From NCBI GenBank assembly GCA_017533485.1, contig JAFXIC010000059.1, forward strand, positions 1 through 57,399: 57,399 bases of DNA, read 5' to 3'. The notes beneath the pieces were generated by a model, which saw only the letters and a program-made list of their open reading frames with translations, was not told the origin of the DNA and did no database searches. Of this stretch, positions 326-44,220 are shown one piece after another. The stretch is from Oscillospiraceae bacterium. Its GTDB lineage: Bacteria > Bacillota > Clostridia > Oscillospirales > Ruminococcaceae. Both the position numbers and the translations under genes were made by a program. Position 1 is the first letter of the stretch. Each line of letters starts with the position of its first letter.

Positions 326-808
326 ATGAAAACAAAAATTCGATGGAAACCGATCATATTCAGTATTCTGTTATGCTGGGGCGTGGGCGGACTTGCAAGC
401 CTGCTGACGCTGGACGGATTAAAAGCATTCCCGATGCTTGCCCAGCCGCCGCTGACACCGCCGCAGATTGTATTTCCGGTGGTATGGACGATTCTGCTGA
501 CATTGCTGGGGATAGGATTTGGTCTGGCTGTTTCAGCACCTAATACAGACCCGATTGACAAAGAACGTGTGATTACGTCATTTTCGGTACAGCTGACATT
601 TTTCTTCTGCTGGATGATCTGGTTTTTCGGGCTTGGCTGGTATCTGTTTGCGGCAGTATGGCTGGTGGGGCTGATTGTAACAATTCTGTGGATGATGGGG
701 GCGTTTCGAAAGATCAGCATTCTTGCATTCCGGCTTCAGATTCCATATCTGTTGTGGTGCTGTTTTGCGCTGTATCTGAATATTGGCGTATGGTGGCTGA
801 ACCGGTAG
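326..808 (+). CDS. tspO: TspO/MBR family membrane protein
   Basis: 160 residues with five hydrophobic segments and a high Trp content. The QPPLTPPQIVFPVVWTIL stretch near residue 42 and the C-terminal YLNIGVWWLNR are typical of the tryptophan-rich sensory protein / peripheral benzodiazepine receptor family, which binds porphyrins and lipids in the membrane. The ATG at 326 follows AAGGAGG (312-318) at good spacing; in-frame codons further upstream run through the tRNA and are not used. The stop codon overlaps the start of the next gene by 19 bases, suggesting coupled translation with a recombinase, an unusual partner. The physiological ligand cannot be inferred here. Confidence 0.88.
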   Translation: MKTKIRWKPIIFSILLCWGVGGLASLLTLDGLKAFPMLAQPPLTPPQIVFPVVWTILLTLLGIGFGLAVSAPNTDPIDKERVITSFSVQLTFFFCWMIWFFGLGWYLFAAVWLVGLIVTILWMMGAFRKISILAFRLQIPYLLWCCFALYLNIGVWWLNR

Positions 809-1950
809 GTCAGGCTGCGCTGTATCTGAGACTTTCACGTGAAGACGGGGATACGGAACAGTCGGGCAGTATTCAGAGTCAGCAGCTGTTATTGACAGAA
901 TATGCGAAACGAAACGGAATGACGGTCAGCGCGATTTATACCGATGATGGCATATCGGGAACAAAGTGGAATCGTCCGGGATTACAGGAACTGCTGCGTG
1001 CGGCAGAAAGCGGACAAATCCGTGTGATACTGGTAAAGGATCTGTCTCGTCTCAGCCGGGATTATGTCAAAACAGGGGAGCTGCTGGAGGAATGGTTTCC
1101 GAAGTACGGGATCCGATTGATCGCAGTCGAGGACGGGATAGATACGGCAAAGCAGCTTCCGGCGAATGATTTTTCTCCCATGCGTGCGGTATTGAACGAT
1201 TGGTACGCAAGGGATATTTCACGGAAAGTACGGGCGGCTGTGCACGCAAGGCAGGAGAGCGGACTTTGTACCGCGGCACGACTTCCGTATGGTTATCGGA
1301 AAACAGAGGGCAGAATTCTCGTGGATCCGGCGGAAGCGGCGGTTGTGATATGGATATTCAAAGCGTATATGGATGGAAAAAGCCGCTGTGCGATTGCACG
1401 AAAGCTGACGGAAGACGGGATTCGTCCGCCGGGAGAGAAATGGAATCGGAATATCAGGAACTGGAATGACGCAACGATCGGACGGATTCTGAAGAACAGT
1501 GCCTATTGCGGAAAGCTGATGCTTCATAAGACCGAAAAACTCAGCTATAAATCCAACCGCAAACAGCAGCTTCCGGCATGGATGTGGACGGTCTATCCGA
1601 TTCCGGCAGTGATCGGCGAGGATGTATTCGAAGCAGTTCGTACACGCATCGAACAGAAACCGCAGCGTGCCCGTAACCGGACGCATTGGCTTTCGGGTCG
1701 TGTGTACTGTGGGGAATGCGAAAGCAGAATGTATGTCACAAGTCGGAATCGTGTGATATGCAGCGGCAGAAAACACGGAACTGGCTGTCAAAATCCGTCG
1801 ATGTCACTCTCAGCACTGGAGGAGATGTTATCTGTCCAGCTGGAACGGGATGGGATATCTGTATACAGTCAGGCATTGCCGATACTTCTGGAAAAGATCG
1901 TGATTCGAAAGGAAACCGCAGAGCTGTATCTGCGGTACAAAGAACCATAA
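790..1950 (+). CDS. Serine recombinase (resolvase/invertase family, zinc ribbon)
   Basis: 386 residues. The N-terminal catalytic domain begins ALYLRLSREDGD, with the nucleophilic Ser near residue 16 and the VKDLSRLSRD motif that follows in this family. A recombinase DNA-binding domain comes next (about 160-270), then a zinc ribbon with CGEC and a later Cys pair (about 310-345). It is shorter than most large serine integrases and lacks a long C-terminal coiled coil. No clear Shine-Dalgarno precedes the ATG at 790, which lies inside the end of tspO, so translation probably depends on tspO. No attachment sites or interrupted gene could be found around it. It may be a domesticated recombinase or the remnant of an element. 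Confidence 0.85.
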   Translation: MVAEPVGQAALYLRLSREDGDTEQSGSIQSQQLLLTEYAKRNGMTVSAIYTDDGISGTKWNRPGLQELLRAAESGQIRVILVKDLSRLSRDYVKTGELLEEWFPKYGIRLIAVEDGIDTAKQLPANDFSPMRAVLNDWYARDISRKVRAAVHARQESGLCTAARLPYGYRKTEGRILVDPAEAAVVIWIFKAYMDGKSRCAIARKLTEDGIRPPGEKWNRNIRNWNDATIGRILKNSAYCGKLMLHKTEKLSYKSNRKQQLPAWMWTVYPIPAVIGEDVFEAVRTRIEQKPQRARNRTHWLSGRVYCGECESRMYVTSRNRVICSGRKHGTGCQNPSMSLSALEEMLSVQLERDGISVYSQALPILLEKIVIRKETAELYLRYKEP

Positions 1951-26914: not shown

Positions 26915-27676
26915 TCAGCTTGTTTCACGATTCTGGAGCCGAAGCTTATCCGTAATGAGGGCAATAAATTCGGAATTGGTCGGCTTTCCTTTGCAGGTAT
27001 TGACGGTATATCCGAAGAACGAATTGAGGGTATCGAGATTGCCGCGGTCCCATGCGATTTCGATGGCGTGACGGATCGCACGTTCCACACGTGACGGTGT
27101 GGTTTCGAACTGCTGGGAAACACGCGGATAGAGTTGTTTTGTGACGCTTTCGAGCAGCTCCGGTTCATGATAAGCACTGAGGATTGCGGCACGCAGATAG
27201 TGGTAGCCTTTGATATGTGCCGGAACACCGAGCTGATGGATGATATCGGTAATGGTGACGGCAAGATCCTGACCGGCACGCGTGGTGAAGCTTCCAAGCG
27301 GCTGTTTATTTGTGAGGAGCGCGATGCGTTCTCCGAGAACCTGTAAGTCGAAGGGCTTCAGCATGAAGTACGAAGCGCCGTTTTCCATGACCTGCTGTTC
27401 AACGAAGCTGTTGTCATAAGCGGATGTTACGATAAAAGCAGGGTGTTTTCCGCTGCCTGATTTTGCCTTTTTCATCAGTTCGATGGCATCCATATGGGGA
27501 AGGACGGCATCGACGACCACGACATCCGGCGTATCCTTTCGAATGGATTCCAGAACGGTATTTCCGTTCTTGGGTCTGGTGTAGGCATACATTCCCTGAG
27601 AGCGCAGAATGCTGGCACAAGAAACGCCATATTCTGCGGTGTCATCTCCAATCAAAACTTTGACTTGTTTTTGCAT
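26915..27676 (-). CDS. spo0A: Sporulation master regulator Spo0A
   Basis: 253 residues. The receiver domain (about 5-125) has the acidic pair in VLIGDD, the phospho-acceptor Asp in VVVVDAVLP and the Lys in LKPF. The C-terminal domain contains [20 protein letters not shown], the strongly conserved recognition-helix segment that binds 0A boxes. Phosphorylated Spo0A starts sporulation and other stationary-phase programmes. AAAGGAGG precedes the ATG. A perfect 0A box lies about 90 bp upstream. spoIVB is divergent to it here, whereas in Bacillus spoIVB precedes spo0A on the same strand. Confidence 0.95.
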
Positions 27677-28137
27677 GGTTTTACCTCCTTTTGCATTGTA
27701 TCTCTATTTTAGCATGGAGGGAAATGAAAAGCAAGAGCGAAGAATGGGGAAAGAACAATTCTTTTGTCGAATAATTAACAAATATCACGAATGGGATAAA
27801 ATCGAGCATCTGCACATAAAATATCCGATTCATGCGCTAAAATATATTGAAAATTTAATAATCCGGTCGAACAGCTGCGAGAATGCACGAAGAAAGCATG
27901 GCAAGACGATATCCGGTCAGAATCCGGATTCTTCCGGTTCTGATTGCCGGAGATGCCGCATGGAAAATGGCGGAGTACGGGGTTGGATTTCGGGAGAATT
28001 CGTGTGAATTCATCGTATCTGCGCGGATTGGCGGAATCATCCGTAAAAATATGCAGGTGTTGGCTGATTATCGGCACAGAGATCGGTCAATCCTATGCGT
28101 ATGCGGCAGAGGACGCGCCGCATAAGGAGAGATGACA
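27677..28137. other. Intergenic region between spo0A and spoIVB
   Basis: 461 bp between divergent genes. It holds the 0A box at 27765-27771 and a TAAAAT -10-like site close to spo0A. An open frame at 27883-28125 on the plus strand could encode 80 residues, but has no ribosome binding site or recognisable features, so I do not call it a gene. No clear promoter for spoIVB was found; sporulation sigma factors may act here. Confidence 0.5.
27765..27771 (+). promoter_or_regulatory. 0A box upstream of spo0A
   Basis: TGTCGAA in the wider context TTTTGTCGAATAATTAAC is an exact match to the Spo0A binding consensus. It lies 89 bp before the spo0A start and suggests autoregulation. Confidence 0.65.
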
Positions 28138-29358
28138 ATGCAGACAATGCAAATTTTCAAAAAAACGCTGCTTCGGTTGGGTGCAGGTCTGATCGGACTT
28201 GGGATTATGATCGGCGGCGCAGCGGGATATTATGCACAGCGGCTGCCCGATCATTATTACTGGGAATCCGATCAGCCGTTTTCGATTGCGGCAGCATTTC
28301 CTGTGACGATAACGGGCGAAGCGGAAACGGTTCCTGCGATGCAGCAGGCAGAAGTCAGGCTGTTCGGGATTATTCCGGTAAAAACGGTTTCGCTGACAGT
28401 AGTTGAGCCGAGAGAAGTTTTTGTGGGCGGCGAGCCGTTCGGGATCCGGATGCTGATGGCAGGTGTGATGGTGGTATCGCTGGATGATGTTGTGACCTTG
28501 AGCGGAGAAAGCTGTCCGGCACGCGACGCAGGCATTCAGGTGGGTGATGTCATACAGGCGGTAGACGGCAAGCAGATTTCGGGGAATTCCGATTTGCAGT
28601 CGGCAGTCTTTGGCTCAGAGGGAAAAGCGGTACCGGTCACGTATCTGCGCAACGGGATTCGGGAGACTGTGATGATCACGCCGGTGTTTTCGAGTATTCA
28701 CGGCTGTTATCAGACCGGAATGTGGGTGCGTGACAGCACAGCAGGCATCGGAACTGTCACATATTATGTTCCGGCAGAGAACGGCACAGTACGCTTCGGA
28801 GGGCTTGGCCATGCGGTATGTGATCCGGATACGGGCGAACAGATTCCGCTTGCATCAGGAGATGTGCTGAAAGCAGATGTGACCGATGTACTGGCAGGCT
28901 GTGCCGGACGTCCCGGCGAGCTGCGCGGCCATTTTGATACAGATTCAGCGATGGGAACGCTGTTATCGAATACAGCAAGCGGTGTATTCGGGATTCTGAA
29001 AGCACTGCCGCATCCGGAGCGCGATCCGATTCCGCTTGGCTATCAGCAGGATATTCATCTGGGTGACGCGATCATGTTCACGACAATTCTGGGCGATCTG
29101 CCTGCGGCATATTCGATCGAGATTGAGGAGATTCATGGCGGCGTATCCGGTTCACGAAATCTCGTAGTACACGTTACAGATGAAACGCTGCTGGAGCGGA
29201 GCGGCGGAATTGTGCAGGGTATGAGCGGCAGTCCGATTGTACAGGACGGAAAGCTCGTAGGTGCCGTGACGCATGTATTCGTAAAGGATCCGACGCGCGG
29301 ATATGGCATTCTTGCAGAAAATATGTATGCCCAGACCGCAGCAGGAATGACGGCGTGA
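28138..29358 (+). CDS. spoIVB: SpoIVB peptidase (S55, PDZ)
   Basis: 406 residues: one N-terminal membrane anchor (about 8-32), a PDZ domain (about 110-190, SCPARDAGIQVGDVIQAVDG) and the S55 peptidase domain. The catalytic His lies in GGLGHAVCD (residue 225) and Ser in GMSGSPIVQ (residue 365). SpoIVB is secreted from the forespore and triggers sigma-K activation in the mother cell. The ATG at 28138 is 8 bases after AAGGAG; the ATG at 28132 is too near. It ends before a strong terminator. Confidence 0.94.
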   Translation: MQTMQIFKKTLLRLGAGLIGLGIMIGGAAGYYAQRLPDHYYWESDQPFSIAAAFPVTITGEAETVPAMQQAEVRLFGIIPVKTVSLTVVEPREVFVGGEPFGIRMLMAGVMVVSLDDVVTLSGESCPARDAGIQVGDVIQAVDGKQISGNSDLQSAVFGSEGKAVPVTYLRNGIRETVMITPVFSSIHGCYQTGMWVRDSTAGIGTVTYYVPAENGTVRFGGLGHAVCDPDTGEQIPLASGDVLKADVTDVLAGCAGRPGELRGHFDTDSAMGTLLSNTASGVFGILKALPHPERDPIPLGYQQDIHLGDAIMFTTILGDLPAAYSIEIEEIHGGVSGSRNLVVHVTDETLLERSGGIVQGMSGSPIVQDGKLVGAVTHVFVKDPTRGYGILAENMYAQTAAGMTA

Positions 29359-38314: not shown

Positions 38315-38362
38315 AAATGTCGAATGCACCATTTTTTCCGCACCCGCATATCCTAAGAACAG

Positions 38363-38404: not shown

Positions 38405-40045
38405 ATGGAGATTTCGAAAACCTTGGCGGAATGCGAGATCGGCGCGCGGTACCGCGTCAGACAGATTTCCGCAGAATCGTTTACGGCGAAACGGCTCTCA
38501 GAATTCGGGCTGATTCCCGATACCGAGGTGCAGTGTGTCATGCGCGGAAGAAAGGGCGGAATGTCCGCATTTCAGGTGCGCGGTGTGGTGATTGCGCTGC
38601 GGGAGGCTGACCAGCAGCAGATATCGGTGGAGCTGATTGCGGATGCGCCGACGCATATGACGGACGAGGACGAACGGACAATACTTCTGGTCGGGAATCC
38701 GAATGTCGGAAAGAGTACAGTTTTTAATGCGCTGACCGGCTTGAAACAGCATACGGGAAACTGGTGCGGAAAAACGGTCGTCAGTGCAAAGGGAATATTT
38801 CGGTTTCAGGAGCGGATGATTACACTTCTGGATACACCGGGTACTTATTCGCTGGAATCACAAACCGCGGAAGAAACGGCAGCCGCAGAAGCTGTCTGTA
38901 TGACGCCGCATGATTGTGTGATCTGTGTCTGTGATGCGACAACATTGGAGCGCGGATTGATTCTGGTACTGGAGCTGCTTGCGATGCATCGGCGCGTGGT
39001 CTTGTGCGTGAATTTAATGGACGAGGCAAAATCGCGCGGCATATCGGTGGATTCGGATCACCTTTCGAAGCGGCTTGGAATTCCCGTGGTCTGTACTGCC
39101 GCACGCCGCAAACATACCCTGCAAGCACTTTTGGTTCAGGCATTGGCGGTATGTGACGCGACACCGCCGACTGACGATCCGCCGCCGCTTGTCACATATC
39201 CGATTGCGGCAGAACGTGCAATTTTGCCGCTGACAAATGCGATTGCGGAAGAAATGCCGAAGCATTCTATGATTTCTCCGAGATGGCTGGCATTACGGCT
39301 GCTTTCAGGGAATATGCCGGAAGAAACGGTGGATATCGCTTCGTATCTCGCGGCGGCATCGGTAAAAAAAGCCCGGAATCAAGCGGATGCGCTGCTTTCG
39401 GAAGCAAAGCTGACGCCGTCACAGCTGCATACGGTCTGTCACGCAGCAACTGTGCTGGAAGCGGAAAAGATTGCGGCAGAATCGGTCACGATCCCTGCGG
39501 ATGCCGCACGGAAAGACCGTTTGATCGACAGGATTGTTACGAGCAGAAAATTCGGGATCCCATTGATGCTTCTGATGCTGATGCTTGTATTCTGGCTGAC
39601 GATTGTGGGGGCGAATTATCCATCCCAATGGCTTTCAGAAATTCTGATGGGATTTTGCGGATGGGTTCGGGAAATTGCTTTGGGATATGATATTCCGTGG
39701 TGGCTGACCGGTGCACTGATTGACGGTGCGATGCGAAGTACGGCATGGGTCGTTTCGGTGATGCTGCCGCCGATGGCAATCTTCTTTCCGCTTTTTACAC
39801 TGCTGGAGGATGCAGGACTGCTGCCGCGGCTTGCGATGAATGCAGACCGATGTTTTGCGAAATGCCGCGCCTGCGGCAAACAGTCTCTTACGATGGCAAT
39901 GGGATTTGGCTGCAATGCGGTGGGCGTGACGGAATGCCGGATTATCGACAGCAGACGAGAACGCCTGATTGCTGTGCTGACCAATGCACTTGTTCCCTGT
40001 AACGGCAGATTTCCGCCGCGTCCGGGAACATCAGATTCTATATAA
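38405..40045 (+). CDS. feoB: FeoA-FeoB fusion ferrous iron transporter, N-terminal part (interrupted)
   Basis: FeoB imports Fe2+ across the membrane. Residues 1-75 are a FeoA domain (RLSEFGLIPDTEVQCVM), followed by the FeoB G domain with G1 GNPNVGKST (about 98-106), G3 LLDTPGTYSL and G4 NLMDEAK, a helical spacer, and the first half of the transport domain with LPPMAIFFPLFTLLEDAG and ending VPCNGRFP at 40015. After residue 537 the frame enters an inserted element and stops after nine foreign codons. The missing second half lies at 43507-44220 in the matching frame. GAAAGGGTGAG precedes the ATG. Without recombination the product should be inactive in transport. Confidence 0.95.
   Translation: MEISKTLAECEIGARYRVRQISAESFTAKRLSEFGLIPDTEVQCVMRGRKGGMSAFQVRGVVIALREADQQQISVELIADAPTHMTDEDERTILLVGNPNVGKSTVFNALTGLKQHTGNWCGKTVVSAKGIFRFQERMITLLDTPGTYSLESQTAEETAAAEAVCMTPHDCVICVCDATTLERGLILVLELLAMHRRVVLCVNLMDEAKSRGISVDSDHLSKRLGIPVVCTAARRKHTLQALLVQALAVCDATPPTDDPPPLVTYPIAAERAILPLTNAIAEEMPKHSMISPRWLALRLLSGNMPEETVDIASYLAAASVKKARNQADALLSEAKLTPSQLHTVCHAATVLEAEKIAAESVTIPADAARKDRLIDRIVTSRKFGIPLMLLMLMLVFWLTIVGANYPSQWLSEILMGFCGWVREIALGYDIPWWLTGALIDGAMRSTAWVVSVMLPPMAIFFPLFTLLEDAGLLPRLAMNADRCFAKCRACGKQSLTMAMGFGCNAVGVTECRIIDSRRERLIAVLTNALVPCNGRFPPRPGTSDSI
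39989..40032 (+). other. Left attachment junction (attL-like)
   Basis: The right half (40012-40032: TCCGCCGC, six bases, GAACATC) is the left end of the element, and the left half is feoB coding sequence. The centre is TT at 40010-40011, inside the direct repeat GATTTCCG (40008-40015). Confidence 0.8.
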
Positions 40046-40059
40046 AGGATGATGATGAT

Positions 40060-41241
40060 ATGATAGAATTGCTGGCAAAACGATGGATTCGGAATTATAA
40101 GTCGTATCAGGATCCGGATGTCCGAAAAGGATATGGAATGCTGTGTTCGATTGTCGGGATTGTGCTGAATGTTCTGCTTTGTGCGGTCAAATTTTTTGCC
40201 GGTACGATCAGCGGTTCGATCGCGATTACAGCAGACGCGCTGAATAATCTTTCGGATGCGGCGTCCTCGCTGATTACATTGATCGGGTTCTGGTTTGCGG
40301 GAAAAGCGCCGGATCCGGAGCATCCGTTCGGACATGGCAGAATTGAATATCTCGCTGGTCTTGCAGTTTCGATGCTGATTCTCTGGATGGGCGCAGATCT
40401 TGCGCTGACATCGGTCAAGAAGCTGTTTCATCCCGAACCGGTAACAGGCGGCTGGCTGGTATCGGTGATTCTGGTCATTTCGATTCTGGGAAAGCTCTAT
40501 ATGTACTATTATAATCATACAACCGCAAAGAAGATTGATTCTGCCGCAATGGAAGCGACAGCCGCCGACAGCAGAAGTGATGCACTTTCGACGCTGGTTG
40601 TGCTGGTCTGTACCCTGATTACTGTGCTGACGGGCTTAAAGATTGATGGAATCTGCGGTATATTCGTGTCGCTTCTGATTCTGAAGACAGGCTTTGATGC
40701 CGCAAAGGATACGATATCTCCGCTTCTGGGCCAGCCGCCGACGAAAGAGCTTGTACAGGAAATCCATCAGCTTGTGCTGGCGCATGAAGAAATTGTCGGA
40801 ATGCATGACCTTGTGGTGCACGATTATGGTCCGGGACGTATGATGATATCGCTCCATGCGGAGGTTTCTGGGAATGAGGATATCTATCTGCTCCATGATG
40901 TGATCGACAATGTGGAGCGTGAATTATCGGAGCATTTCCGTTGTGAAGCAGTGATTCATATGGATCCGATCGCGGTGGATGACGAGGCGGTTTTGGCAAT
41001 GCGCCTTGCGGTTGCGAAAGCGATGCGGGAGATTGATCCGGTGATTACGATTCATGATTTCCGTATGGTACAGGGACCGACGCATACCAATCTGATCTTT
41101 GATGCAGTCGTACCATATGGATTCCGGTTATCTGATGCCGCGCTGACTGCAGAAATCCATCAGTATATTGCAGAGAAATTTCCGCATTGCTTTGCGGTTG
41201 TGAAGATTGATAAGGATTATACGGGCAATGAAGACGAGTAA
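40060..41241 (+). CDS. Cation diffusion facilitator, Mn-type motif
   Basis: 393 residues: six membrane segments in the first 215 residues and a C-terminal cytoplasmic dimerisation domain. Metal-site residues are Asn62/Asp66 in NNLSD of segment 2 and Asp170/Asp174 in DSRSD of segment 5. This NxxxD/DxxxD pattern is that of Mn-exporting CDFs rather than Zn types, which have His in segment 5. DPEHPFGHGRIEYLAG is a family signature. AAAGGA precedes the ATG by about 10 bases. It begins 14 bp after the stop of the truncated feoB frame with no promoter between them, so it is likely transcribed from feoAB. First cargo gene of the element. Confidence 0.92.
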   Translation: MIELLAKRWIRNYKSYQDPDVRKGYGMLCSIVGIVLNVLLCAVKFFAGTISGSIAITADALNNLSDAASSLITLIGFWFAGKAPDPEHPFGHGRIEYLAGLAVSMLILWMGADLALTSVKKLFHPEPVTGGWLVSVILVISILGKLYMYYYNHTTAKKIDSAAMEATAADSRSDALSTLVVLVCTLITVLTGLKIDGICGIFVSLLILKTGFDAAKDTISPLLGQPPTKELVQEIHQLVLAHEEIVGMHDLVVHDYGPGRMMISLHAEVSGNEDIYLLHDVIDNVERELSEHFRCEAVIHMDPIAVDDEAVLAMRLAVAKAMREIDPVITIHDFRMVQGPTHTNLIFDAVVPYGFRLSDAALTAEIHQYIAEKFPHCFAVVKIDKDYTGNEDE

Positions 41242-41277
41242 AGATGGAAATTCCGGACTTTGGTATGGAGGTGGCGT

Positions 41278-42102
41278 ATGAGATTACGATGTCCGATCTG
41301 CGGTATGCCGCTGACGCGTGAGCCGAAACGATATCTGTGTGAAAATGGTCATAGCTTTGACCGTGCGAAATCGGACTATGTAAATTTGCTGCGCCGCCAG
41401 AGCAGTCGGGTGCGCGGCGATGATCCGGCTATGGTTGCGGCAAGACGCGAGTTTCTGGATGCCGGATATTATATGCCGCTGCTGGAAGGGCTCAAAGAGA
41501 TTCTGCTGCGCTATCGTCCGGAAGTGCTGGCAGACATCGGCTGCGGAGAGGGCTGGTATTCCTGTCAGCTTGTCTCGGCACTGCATCAGAACGGCGTAGA
41601 TACTGTATTTGCAGGTTTTGATATTTCGGCGGACGCGCTTCGTTATGCCGCAAACCGTATGAAGCGTATGGGAGTTTCGGATATGGACTGGGCGGTGGCG
41701 TCGATTAACCGTCTTCCGCTTGCAGATGGAAGCTGTGACGCGCTGCTGAGTATTTTCGCACCGGTTGAGGCGGATGAATTCGCAAGGATTTTAAAACCGG
41801 ACGGTATTCTGGTACGGGCGATTCCGCTGGAGCGGCATCTCTGGCAGCTCAAAGAAGCGGTCTATCCGAAGCCGTATGAAAATCGTCCTGTTCTCGAAGC
41901 ACCCGATGGCTTTGCCATAGAATCGGTGCGGCGGATTGAAACAACAGTTACTGTCACAGGGGATGCGCTCAAAAATCTGTTTGCGATGACGCCGTATGTA
42001 AGAAAGACTTCTCCTGCGGATGCGGCAAAACTGGCGGAGATGGTGTCTCTGACAACAGAGCTGGGCTTTGGTCTGATGGTATGCCGCAAAGACTGCGGAT
42101 GA
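41278..42102 (+). CDS. RlmA-like 23S rRNA (guanine-N1)-methyltransferase
   Basis: 274 residues. An N-terminal zinc finger (RCPICGMPL ... LCENGHSF) is followed by an S-adenosylmethionine domain with LADIGCGEGWYS and a C-terminal LFAMTPYVRKT stretch, all typical of RlmA/TlrB enzymes. These methylate G745 or G748 in helix 35 of 23S rRNA; TlrB gives tylosin tolerance. Which base is modified here cannot be told. TGGAGGTG lies 5 bases before the ATG at 41278. It follows the CDF gene by 36 bp, in the same orientation, inside the element. Confidence 0.88.
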   Translation: MRLRCPICGMPLTREPKRYLCENGHSFDRAKSDYVNLLRRQSSRVRGDDPAMVAARREFLDAGYYMPLLEGLKEILLRYRPEVLADIGCGEGWYSCQLVSALHQNGVDTVFAGFDISADALRYAANRMKRMGVSDMDWAVASINRLPLADGSCDALLSIFAPVEADEFARILKPDGILVRAIPLERHLWQLKEAVYPKPYENRPVLEAPDGFAIESVRRIETTVTVTGDALKNLFAMTPYVRKTSPADAAKLAEMVSLTTELGFGLMVCRKDCG

Positions 42103-42181
42103 GTGTATCATAGGCACGCATACTGACCGGACTGCCGGAATCCCATGTGATTTCGACAGAAAACGAACGCTTTTTTGGCAT
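41969..42181 (-). CDS. Possible small divergent ORF in the element
   Basis: 70 codons starting MPKKRSFSVEITWDSGSPV. A strong AAAGGAGG lies 8 bases before the ATG, and the first 26 codons occupy otherwise noncoding sequence. The rest runs antisense to the end of the methyltransferase gene and looks like a shadow (Pro/Ser-rich). It may be a genuine small protein, for instance a recombination directionality factor, a truncated gene, or chance. No homologue is recognised. Confidence 0.35.
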   Translation of the reverse strand: MPKKRSFSVEITWDSGSPVSMRAYDTLIRSLCGIPSDQSPALLSETPSPPVLPHPQEKSFLHTASSQTDF

Positions 42182-42188
42182 AATAAAA

Positions 42189-42230
42189 CCCTCCTTTCCA
42201 TAGAATGCTATGCGGAAAGGGGGGCTTTTT
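42189..42230 (+). promoter_or_regulatory. Hairpin with T-run covering the recombinase ribosome binding site
   Basis: CCCTCCTTTCC (42189-42199) pairs with GGAAAGGGGGG (42214-42224), extended by ATAG/CTAT round a 4-base loop, then C and T5 reaching the ATG at 42231. It is at once a plausible terminator for the methyltransferase transcript and a block on the recombinase Shine-Dalgarno. The complementary strand places AAAGGAGG before the divergent small ORF. Confidence 0.65.
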
Positions 42231-43475
42231 ATGTATGCGGCAATTTATTGCAGAAAATCTGTTGATACACAGCGAGGTGCGTCGATGGAGAGTCAGCTTG
42301 CACACTGTCGGAGTTATCTTGCCGCACATCGGAGTGCGGAAACGGCAAAGACGGCATGGGTCTACCAGGACGAGGGCTTTTCGGGTGCGGCAATGGCACG
42401 TCCTGCGATGCAGCGGCTTCTGGGGGATGTGCGTTCTCATCTGATTTCATGTGTGGTCTGCTATCGTCTGGATCGCATCAGTCGGAGTGTTGCGGATTTT
42501 ACCGCCCTGATGGAGGAGTTTTCACGCTGTCATGTAGATTTTCTGTGCGCAAGCGAAGAATTTGATACGGCAAAGCCGATGGGGAGAGCGATGCTTTATA
42601 TCGCCTCGGTCTTCTCACAGCTGGAACGGGAAACGCTGGCAGAACGTGTACGGGATAATATGTATACACTGGCGGAAAGCGGAAGATGGCTCGGCGGGCC
42701 GCCGCCGTATGGCTATCGGATTGTACGGAAACCGCCGCCGCATCCGTATTCCGTGCTGGCACCGGTGGATGAGGAGCTTCGGATTGTGTGGGAGATGTTT
42801 GCGTGCTACCGGAAGTATGGTGCGATTGCGGAAGTAGCGGATGCGTTGGCAGGCGTCCGGAATCGTCAGGGTAATGCATTTACTCCGCGCTATATCCGAA
42901 GTATCCTGCGCAATCCGGTCTATACGAATGCGTCGGCGGATACCGCAGCATATTTATCGGAATTGGGGTATGCAATCGGCTTTTCGGAAGAAAGTCTCTC
43001 CGGTCCAAAGAGAGGAATGCTGATATTCGGAAAACACCCGAATCATGGGGAAGCGATGCCGCTTGTGATTAGGGGCAGCCATCCGGCTTTGATTGCAGAT
43101 GACGAATGGCTCGAAATCCAGCAGTCGATTCGGATTCAGAAACGATGTCATCCGCCGACAGCAGGGATATTGCGGCAGTTTTTCTTCTGTGGGAAATGCG
43201 GAAGCATGATGGTATCGAAGCCGCGAAGCGGAAGAAACGGAGCGCACGATTATATCTGTAAAGGAAAAATGCGGTATGGCTCTTGTGACTGTGAGAACCT
43301 GAATGGAGCGGAAGCAGACGCGCGTGCATGGGAAGCGGTTTGTGATGCATTGGACTGTGCGGAGAAGATCCGGACGATTGACAGATCCGGAAGACAGGCG
43401 GTGCTGCAGCTTTGTGTTGCGCGTGCGGAATGGGACGGACAGATTCTGCGGCTCACGCTCCATCGTCTTTCCTAA
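42231..43475 (+). CDS. Serine recombinase of the feoAB element
   Basis: 414 residues. The catalytic domain starts MYAAIYCRKSVDTQ with nucleophile Ser10 and has CYRLDRISRSVADF and SQLERETLAERVRDNM. The recombinase domain covers about 160-270 (GGPPPYGYRI, AFTPRYIRSILRNPVY), followed by a zinc ribbon (CGKCGSMM ... YICKGK ... GSCDC) at about 315-350 and a short C-terminal region. The start at 42231 has GGAAAGGGGGG upstream, held in a hairpin; an earlier ATG at 42210 lacks a site. Being the last gene next to the right junction is the standard place for an integrase. It is of a different subgroup from the recombinase at 790-1950. Confidence 0.93.
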   Translation: MYAAIYCRKSVDTQRGASMESQLAHCRSYLAAHRSAETAKTAWVYQDEGFSGAAMARPAMQRLLGDVRSHLISCVVCYRLDRISRSVADFTALMEEFSRCHVDFLCASEEFDTAKPMGRAMLYIASVFSQLERETLAERVRDNMYTLAESGRWLGGPPPYGYRIVRKPPPHPYSVLAPVDEELRIVWEMFACYRKYGAIAEVADALAGVRNRQGNAFTPRYIRSILRNPVYTNASADTAAYLSELGYAIGFSEESLSGPKRGMLIFGKHPNHGEAMPLVIRGSHPALIADDEWLEIQQSIRIQKRCHPPTAGILRQFFFCGKCGSMMVSKPRSGRNGAHDYICKGKMRYGSCDCENLNGAEADARAWEAVCDALDCAEKIRTIDRSGRQAVLQLCVARAEWDGQILRLTLHRLS

Positions 43476-43479
43476 CGCG

Positions 43480-43523
43480 GATGTTCTGAAACGCGGCGGA
43501 TTTCCGTCGCTTCTGGCAATCTC
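43480..43523 (+). other. Right attachment junction (attR-like)
   Basis: The left half (43480-43500: GATGTTC, six bases, GCGGCGGA) is the right end of the element and is the inverted counterpart of the attL right half, with 17 of 21 positions matching. The right half is feoB. The centre is TT at 43501-43502. Confidence 0.8.
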
Positions 43524-44220
43524 TATGATCTTTTTTGCACGCGGACGGTTTGCGTCGGTTCAGGCGGCTTTCATTCTGACAATCCTGATCTGCGGAAGTA
43601 TCGGAATGACCTTTGCGGCATCCTGGATTCTGGGACGAACGGTGCTTCGGGGAGAACCATCCTCCTTCGTGCTGGAGCTTCCGCCCTATCGAAAGCCGGA
43701 GATCGGAAAAGTGATTGTCCGATCGCTGCTTGACCGTACAGCTTTCGTGCTGGGGCGTGCAGTGCTGACCGCGGCACCCGCCGGTATTCTGATCTGGCTT
43801 TGCGCGAATATTTCAATCAGCGGAGAGAGTCTGCTGACGGCTGCCGCATCGGTGCTTTCGGGGATTGGAGGGATGCTTGGGCTGGACGGAACAATCCTGC
43901 TGTCCTTTCTGCTTGGAATTCCGGCAAATGAAATCGTACTGCCGGTTGCGGTAACCGCATATCTCGGTGCGGGCGTGCTGACAGATTACAGTTCGACAGA
44001 AATGCTGTCGGAGCTTTTGACTGCAAATGGCTGGACGGCTTGCACAGCGGTCTGTTATCTGGTCTTCACATTGTTTCATTGGCCGTGTGCCACAACGCTT
44101 CTGACCATACGGAAGGAAACGAAAAGTACGCGCCTGATGCTTGCGGCATGGATTCTGCCGACACTGATCGGAGTGACGCTTTGTATGCTGATTCATGCGG
44201 TATTCGGATGGATAGAATAA
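43507..44220 (+). CDS. feoB: FeoB, C-terminal part (separated from its start by the element)
   Basis: 237 residues beginning SLLAISMIFFARGRF, the direct continuation of VPCNGRFP at 40015. It contains the second Gate segment (ELPPYRKPEIGKVIVRSLLDRT), GIGGMLGLDGTILLSFLLGIPANEIVLPV and the final membrane helices (FTLFHWPCATTLLTIRKET). The open frame extends back into the recombinase gene in another register, and no ribosome binding site was found, so this half is probably silent unless the element leaves. No stop codon or frameshift has accumulated, which suggests that it is still selected. Confidence 0.93.
   Translation, partial: SLLAISMIFFARGRFASVQAAFILTILICGSIGMTFAASWILGRTVLRGEPSSFVLELPPYRKPEIGKVIVRSLLDRTAFVLGRAVLTAAPAGILIWLCANISISGESLLTAAASVLSGIGGMLGLDGTILLSFLLGIPANEIVLPVAVTAYLGAGVLTDYSSTEMLSELLTANGWTACTAVCYLVFTLFHWPCATTLLTIRKETKSTRLMLAAWILPTLIGVTLCMLIHAVFGWIE

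Follow-up and report, generated by a model that had tools for sequence, protein, structure and literature searches.

An element encoding a short serine recombinase in feoAB of an Oscillospiraceae bacterium: probable excision during sporulation

The window analysed here, a stretch of 57,399 nucleotides that is the entire contig C45 of an Oscillospiraceae genome (G000; 2.12 Mb in 76 contigs), contains the genes of a ferrous-iron transporter, feoAB, interrupted within the CNGRFP sequence of FeoB by an element that encodes its own serine recombinase. The element is probably a skin-like sporulation element, novel in its target and reduced in its enzyme, which would be excised in development so that feoAB is rebuilt (table 1).

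The split feoAB and its conservation

One FeoA-FeoB protein is encoded as two parts in the window. This observation, made in a first-pass annotation of the DNA, is confirmed in each detail that was checked: the two parts are cut at the same codon, GATTTCCG is found at 40008-40015 and at 43499-43506 in identical codon phase, and the flanks joined in silico give one open frame of 774 residues plus stop. In the frame of the N-terminal part, nine unrelated codons follow the cut at 40015, and then a stop ending at 40045. Removal of the element between the core repeats restores the frame exactly, in silico, in the window and at six further loci, with CNGRFP read across the joined frame in all seven loci examined. 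The core TT supplies bases one and two of the codon for Phe in CNGRFP.

A search for the recombinase in 61 relatives returned close matches in G012 (66% identity), G013 (58%) and G010 (48%), the next among the matches listed being at 40%. With these three other species, the same element is found in four of 30 genomes searched within the genus. In all three relatives the order is feoA-feoB(N)/CDF transporter/RlmA-like methyltransferase/recombinase/feoB(C), with feoB cut at the same codon and all genes open, and the element is 3,440, 3,512 and 3,470 bp long. Identity to the window protein decreases from G012 to G013 to G010 for each of the five proteins compared, and G000 and G012 are the closest pair for all five genes. 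G013 and G010 are mutually closest for three of the five, the exceptions being the FeoB C-half and the recombinase; in the recombinase tree the (G000,G012) and (G013,G010) pairs have support values of 98/95 and 89/69, respectively. An AraC-type upstream neighbour is common to G000 and G012. From these comparisons the element and the split are taken to be old and inherited.

The feoB halves of the four split species are separated by a synonymous divergence (dS) of at least 1.2, often saturated, with a ratio of nonsynonymous to synonymous differences per site (pN/pS, Nei-Gojobori) of 0.34-0.55. By defining near-invariant columns on 43 intact FeoBs (out of 55 loci examined), it was found that 100-104 of 104 such residues are kept in the N-half of the split proteins and 45-48 of 49 in their C-half. 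Both counts are within what the intact proteins give when each is left out in turn; thus, the halves have not decayed. Decay of the element along with degeneration of the feoB halves in relatives, which the first-pass annotation had named as an outcome that would speak against it, is not what the four species show, their genes being open and their halves constrained. Intact feoAB, also looked for in close genomes, is present uncut within the genus, in G007 and G009. The open halves and the cut common to four diverged species support the proposal that a serine-recombinase element interrupts feoAB and that its precise loss would make the gene whole again. That the split is more than chance is indicated by three other species with an identical cut, the same order of genes and both halves open, and by three longer recombinase relatives, from three other families, that go with an interruption of feoB at this codon.

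The recombinase, its sites and the cargo of the element

The recombinase has the Resolvase, Recombinase and zinc-ribbon domains of large serine recombinases, and its best phage match, in a Terrisporobacter phage, is 34.5% identical over 98% of the query. The enzymes of the four split species are short (411-416 aa), with catalytic motifs, zinc ribbon and final strand (WDGE-like) retained; the stretch between the zinc ribbon and the final strand is absent from them and present in the relatives of G267, G124 and G159 (504-536 aa). As placed by position after PMC3783163, the absent stretch should be the direction-setting coiled coil; on this placement, the coiled-coil motif that large serine recombinases carry in the zinc-ribbon domain is lacking from all four short enzymes. 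According to excerpts of that paper, the integrase of LI (A118) without its coiled coil binds DNA normally and carries out intramolecular attL x attR excision without a directionality factor, with intermolecular integration abolished (PMC3783163); in excerpts of a second paper, the LI coiled-coil deletion is weak in vitro, with about 2% on either pair of sites (PMC10754689). The reversibility envisaged in the first-pass annotation is not supported; re-integration by one model integrase depends on the segment that the present enzyme lacks.

Relatives of the recombinase on viral contigs were not retained (33 pattern matches, none confirmed by tblastn), nor were those on plasmids (two records, matching 5% of the query only). 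All 1,019 phage records that match it do so at less than 60% identity. A second open reading frame for a large serine recombinase lies at 658-1950 (+) of the window, near the contig end and a few hundred bases from a tRNA-Met gene (119-195); it encodes 430 aa from a mechanically assigned start, with resolvase, recombinase and zinc-ribbon domains.

The attP site was reconstructed by script, and its symmetry was scored over 25 positions around TT and compared with shuffles. Palindromic positions number 18 of 25 in the window (6.9 in the shuffles), 17 of 25 in G012 and 20 of 25 in G010, and P-arm inverted repeats were found at G267, G124 and G159 as well. In G013, attL reads TTA and attR TTT, and the base preceding the core is A in attL and G in attR; these differences on both sides place the crossover within GATT.

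The region between the recombinase gene and a small divergent open reading frame contains sigma-E-like sites facing each way, which are of strict form in two and of loose form in all four species on each side, a result equalled by none of 500 shuffles. By folding energies only, the ribosome site of the recombinase gene lies in a stable hairpin in four of four genomes. The small frame (70-81 codons, with a strong ribosome site) adjoins the recombinase gene and overlaps the methyltransferase gene in all four species; its identification as a certain directionality factor was not upheld, its codon pattern being weakly constrained.

The genes for the CDF transporter, the RlmA-like methyltransferase and the recombinase are all on the feo strand. 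In the element, where these three genes and the one small frame are all that was recognised, no phage structural or transfer genes were identified, so that the feature defining prophages and integrative conjugative elements is missing. The idea that homologues of the CDF gene are sigma-K genes was dropped after the pattern was found in one of 20 upstream regions, compared with 0.56 by shuffle.

Table 1. Features of the split feoAB region and sporulation genes of the window (positions in the 57,399-nucleotide stretch).
Feature	Position	Strand	Remarks
Sigma-K-type promoter of feoAB	38328..38354	+	-35 AC 38328-38329, 17 nt, -10 CATATCCT 38347-38354
feoA and feoB N-terminal part	38405..40015	+	537 codons to cut, single frame
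attL	39985..40036	+	feoB-side arm, core TT 40010-40011, element-side arm
Removable element, 3,491 bp	40012..43502	.	after left core TT to end of right core TT
CDF-family cation transporter	40060..41241	+	best solved-structure match FieF, E 2.5e-28; metal not settled
RlmA-like 23S rRNA (guanine) methyltransferase	41260..42102	+	below curated cut-off, 221 of 303 bits
Small open reading frame, 70 codons	41969..42181	-	weak candidate for a directionality factor; divergent from recombinase, overlaps methyltransferase gene end
Sigma-E-type promoter-like sequence before recombinase	42180..42206	+	ATA 42180-42182, 16 nt, CATAGAAT 42199-42206
RNA hairpin covering recombinase ribosome-binding site	42189..42224	+	z -2.9 in window; 4/200 shuffles fold as well
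Sigma-E-type promoter-like sequence facing small open reading frame	42205..42232	-	ATA-N17-CATAGCAT
Short large-serine recombinase	42231..43475	+	414 aa from best start; 421 aa from 42210
attR	43476..43527	+	element-side arm, core TT 43501-43502, feoB-side arm
feoB C-terminal part	43507..44220	+	237 codons and stop; FeoB_C and second Gate domain
spo0A	26915..27676	-	above NCBI cut-off
spoIVB	28132..29358	+	above NCBI cut-off

Sporulation context and competing explanations

The pattern AC-N17-CATANNNT upstream of feoA is common to the four split loci, in which it was first noticed by eye and tested afterwards on 56 feoA upstream regions (52 usable from 62 other loci, and the four split ones; the loci are related, so that the trials are not independent). 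It was found in 25 of the 56; dinucleotide shuffles gave 0.52 on average and never more than 2 in 100 rounds. A sigma-E-type pattern, taken as control, occurred once, with 0.98 by shuffle. By group, the sigma-K-type pattern is present in all four split loci and all 12 uncut loci of the genus, and in nine of 40 loci of other genera. No Fur-type box was seen by eye in the 90-nt gap before feoA, on which no scan was made. The sigma consensus sequences are those published for Clostridioides difficile; upstream regions of spoIVA gave no local yardstick (a start was available in three of six, with no pattern in those three). In that organism, as taken from excerpts, sigma-K and sigma-E promoters resemble each other in the -10 box and differ at -35 (AC and ATA, respectively); feoA-feoB is a member of the sigma-K regulon, its sigma-K promoter has been mapped, and its expression falls to 0.05 of wild type in a sigK mutant (PMC3789822).

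SpoIVA is present in six of six genomes examined, and the window itself encodes, besides Spo0A and SpoIVB, YqfD, which passes its Pfam cut-off, and a YlbJ-like protein, which falls short of its own. SpoIVB has a role in the activation of sigma-K. Two sigma factors, one with GISQSY (sigma-E type) and one with GISRSY (sigma-K type), are found in G000, G013 and G010; the residue that differs is, presumably, the Gln/Arg position named for C. difficile sigma-E and sigma-K. Taken together, feoAB has the appearance of an operon that the mother cell transcribes late in sporulation.

We infer the excision itself, its timing, the cell type and the purpose of the iron as follows. In vegetative cells feoB would be interrupted and silent. 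During sporulation sigma-E of the mother cell would turn on the recombinase, and perhaps also the small divergent open reading frame, and the recombinase would recombine attL with attR at the core TT, within the Phe codon of CNGRFP, and release a 3.49-kb circle. Sigma-K would then transcribe the restored feoAB, allowing the mother cell to import ferrous iron late in sporulation. The spore would retain the element and, because the mother cell dies, the rearranged DNA would not be inherited. Mother-cell excision would explain at once a target that resembles a late mother-cell gene, the preserved halves and an enzyme with no need to re-integrate, the cell in which it acts being destined to die; heritable excision in vegetative cells by a one-way enzyme would lead to loss of the element.

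Several findings weigh against this developmental explanation. Neither the excised junction nor the attP (circle) junction occurs in the assembly (0 and 0, with one mismatch allowed). The attP arms of G013 are asymmetric in register (8 of 25, p 0.25), and attB, attL and attR are mostly above shuffles too, at several loci, if less strongly than attP, so that symmetry is not special to attP. The sigma-E-like patterns were found by eye and chosen after looking, and are strict in two of the four species only. The small open reading frame is weakly constrained (pN/pS 0.50-0.89 over the first 33 codons, 0.77-1.16 over the whole). For the cargo, too, none of the four split loci has a sigma-K or sigma-E pattern in the 500 nt that precede the CDF gene. 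In the other-family split loci the sigma-K pattern is carried by G159 and missing in G124 and G267. No sigma-K-like protein was found in G012 (84% complete), which has the sigma-E type only, and that of G000 reaches 279 of the 299 bits required by the NCBI model, a cut-off passed in one of nine genomes. A second, distant FeoB (30% identity) is encoded in the genome (G000:C28:32853-34184) in an open frame of 802 codons, so that feoAB need not be essential. From the published side, the coiled-coil deletion of phiC31 integrase is dead, as stated in the excerpts of PMC10754689, and the sigE column for feoAB is blank in the C. difficile table (PMC3789822).

The first-pass annotation had suggested a reversible genetic switch for iron uptake. 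Spelled out, the element would leave and re-enter the DNA of growing cells and toggle ferrous-iron uptake in response to iron or oxygen; in a variant, import would possibly be swapped for cation export, the CDF gene being placed behind the feo promoter when the element is integrated. The CDF gene does begin 44 nt beyond the cut in the feo direction, with FieF as its best solved-structure match, and the coiled-coil-less LI enzyme acts, at a low level, on both site pairs (PMC10754689, in part). On the other hand, the loss of intermolecular integration by the LI deletion mutant argues against re-entry, as does the sigma-K-type promoter in the 90-nt gap before feoA against vegetative control. Furthermore, a CDF match of at least 40% was present in 19 relatives not belonging to the split clade, never within 30 kb of a FeoB match among those listed, and yet in G159, of another family, a relative of the element's CDF gene is divergent and directly upstream of feoAB (L125 3700-4860). 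By taking into account the promoter, the sigma-K operon of C. difficile and the sporulation genes, one-way excision in the mother cell fits better than the iron switch, which is judged improbable.

Also unlikely is an inert or slowly mobile insertion, for which feoB would be a favoured landing site, with the gene permanently off and excision without a role. Such a view would agree with the repeated hits on feoB (11 of 106 FeoB N-half matches end early, as described below) and with the paralogous FeoB of the genome; it is opposed by the open and constrained halves in four deeply diverged species, in which the recombinase and att sites have been kept as well, and by the lack of recognised transfer or phage genes in the element. 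The constraint on both halves would equally be expected if they were translated separately and cooperated in the membrane. This explanation is very hard to sustain in view of the C-half, which has no conserved start or Shine-Dalgarno sequence, and of the tails that follow the N-half, which are different in all four split loci. The absence of a start signal of its own, as asserted for the C-half in the first-pass annotation, holds for the window, G012 and G010, where no in-frame start with a Shine-Dalgarno-like sequence is found before or just after its beginning; it does not extend to G013, in which there is one such start 66 nt upstream, within the recombinase gene. Start positions are not conserved among the four split loci, and the earliest in-frame start of the G012 C-half lies 66 nt beyond the cut.

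feoB as a recurrent target and the relation to known elements

An order-wide search found the recombinase at E 1e-58 or better in 31 of 394 genomes, the window's included. By inspecting the short flanks of 19 loci from this search and 16 from that of the relatives, a FeoB C-half was recognised in G267 and G124; longer stretches of G267, G124, G375 and G159 revealed a third case in G159 and none in G375. The N-half of G124 and of G159 stops at the same codon and is encoded on a contig other than that of the C-half. FeoB of G267 is cut there too, and once more at a second site (TM-MGFG), so that it lies in three pieces on two contigs (L109 C20, L127 C4); the middle piece, of 42 residues, reaches as far as the shared codon and is found 12.7 kb away on the contig of the C-half, with the front part at a third place. 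The seven recombinases associated with the feoB codon cluster with support of 87/78 in the whole 32-row tree and of 99/99 against the second-site group alone, and the four short enzymes with 100/100. Among 29 named genome-scan loci, with flanks of up to 7 kb, a FeoB match was present only in the three of the split clade.

The FeoB N-half was matched in 106 of the 394 genomes. Three of the 11 early-ending matches stop at the codon considered here (window, G124, G159) and six at the second site (G267, G204, G271, G091, G246, G114), with serine recombinases nearby in four of these six; G321 and G334 were rejected as same-codon cuts, the match ending near a contig end in the former and continuing to about residue 554 in the latter. 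The cuts at two sites across the order identify feoB as a repeated target.

Two of the second-site loci hold recognisable elements: a 5.2-kb one in G246 (L163 1440-6640), with a 455-aa serine recombinase, hemerythrin-like, sodium:solute symporter, CheC and CheD genes and no recognised phage genes, and a 13.5-kb one in G114 (L162 3849-17368), with a serine recombinase and, by eye from the starts of open reading frames, surface-polysaccharide-type genes. The search also brought up near-identical large serine recombinases in two families (G402, L066, and G265, L068), a sign of recent transfer; the feoB recombinases, unlike these, are deeply diverged.

Exact frame restoration and an encoded site-specific recombinase are features that the feoB element shares with the known sporulation gene-intervening elements. 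The skin element of Bacillus subtilis is a sigK element of the same kind as that of C. difficile. The latter, described in passages of PMC5025042 that in part concern the B. subtilis element too, is likewise associated with a large serine recombinase and is excised in the mother cell; its recombinase, CD1231, contains a coiled coil and is not restricted to the mother cell, its target is the sigma factor itself, and it has a small directionality factor (CD1234, 72 aa), for which the feoB element offers a candidate only. The gin element, which interrupts gerE in Bacillus cereus ATCC10987, resembles the feoB element as proposed here: it is a non-phage element in a late mother-cell gene, with a serine recombinase and a core repeat with an inverted-repeat att site, and the gene is restored in sporulation. 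Its recombinase genes number three, it encodes the directionality factor GirX and it seems to have been transferred recently (PMC5595907), whereas the feoB element has one short recombinase, two metabolic cargo genes and an iron-transporter target, and is found in four diverged species. SPbeta in spsM (PMC4191935, in part) and yin in yabG (PMC10747680, in part) interrupt sporulation genes, but are a prophage and prophage-like, respectively, with other targets. With the LI (A118) deletion mutant the absence of the coiled coil is common ground, as far as the excerpted text of PMC3783163 goes, that mutant being a laboratory deletion and not a natural enzyme. Thus, the feoB element differs from known sporulation elements in its target, small size, non-phage cargo, long vertical conservation and shortened recombinase. 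No paper placing such an element in feoB was found in the open-licence literature, to which the search was confined, so that this absence carries little weight.

If the developmental explanation is correct, a nutrient transporter would join the short list of genes rebuilt by developmental excision, and the mother cell of gut bacteria of the Oscillospiraceae type would appear to need ferrous-iron import late in sporulation. A further step, put forward as possible rather than probable, is that a domesticated integrase without a coiled coil acts as a one-way developmental resolvase, free of a directionality factor, and that feoB is a recurrent hub of developmental excision in the order. Such an enzyme would excise the element and be unable to re-insert it, which would be harmless as long as it is active only in the dying mother cell, and late ferrous-iron import in spore formation would then be a step controlled by rearrangement. 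The short enzymes would also be a natural test case for the control of direction in serine integrases by the coiled coil, of relevance to genome-engineering tools.

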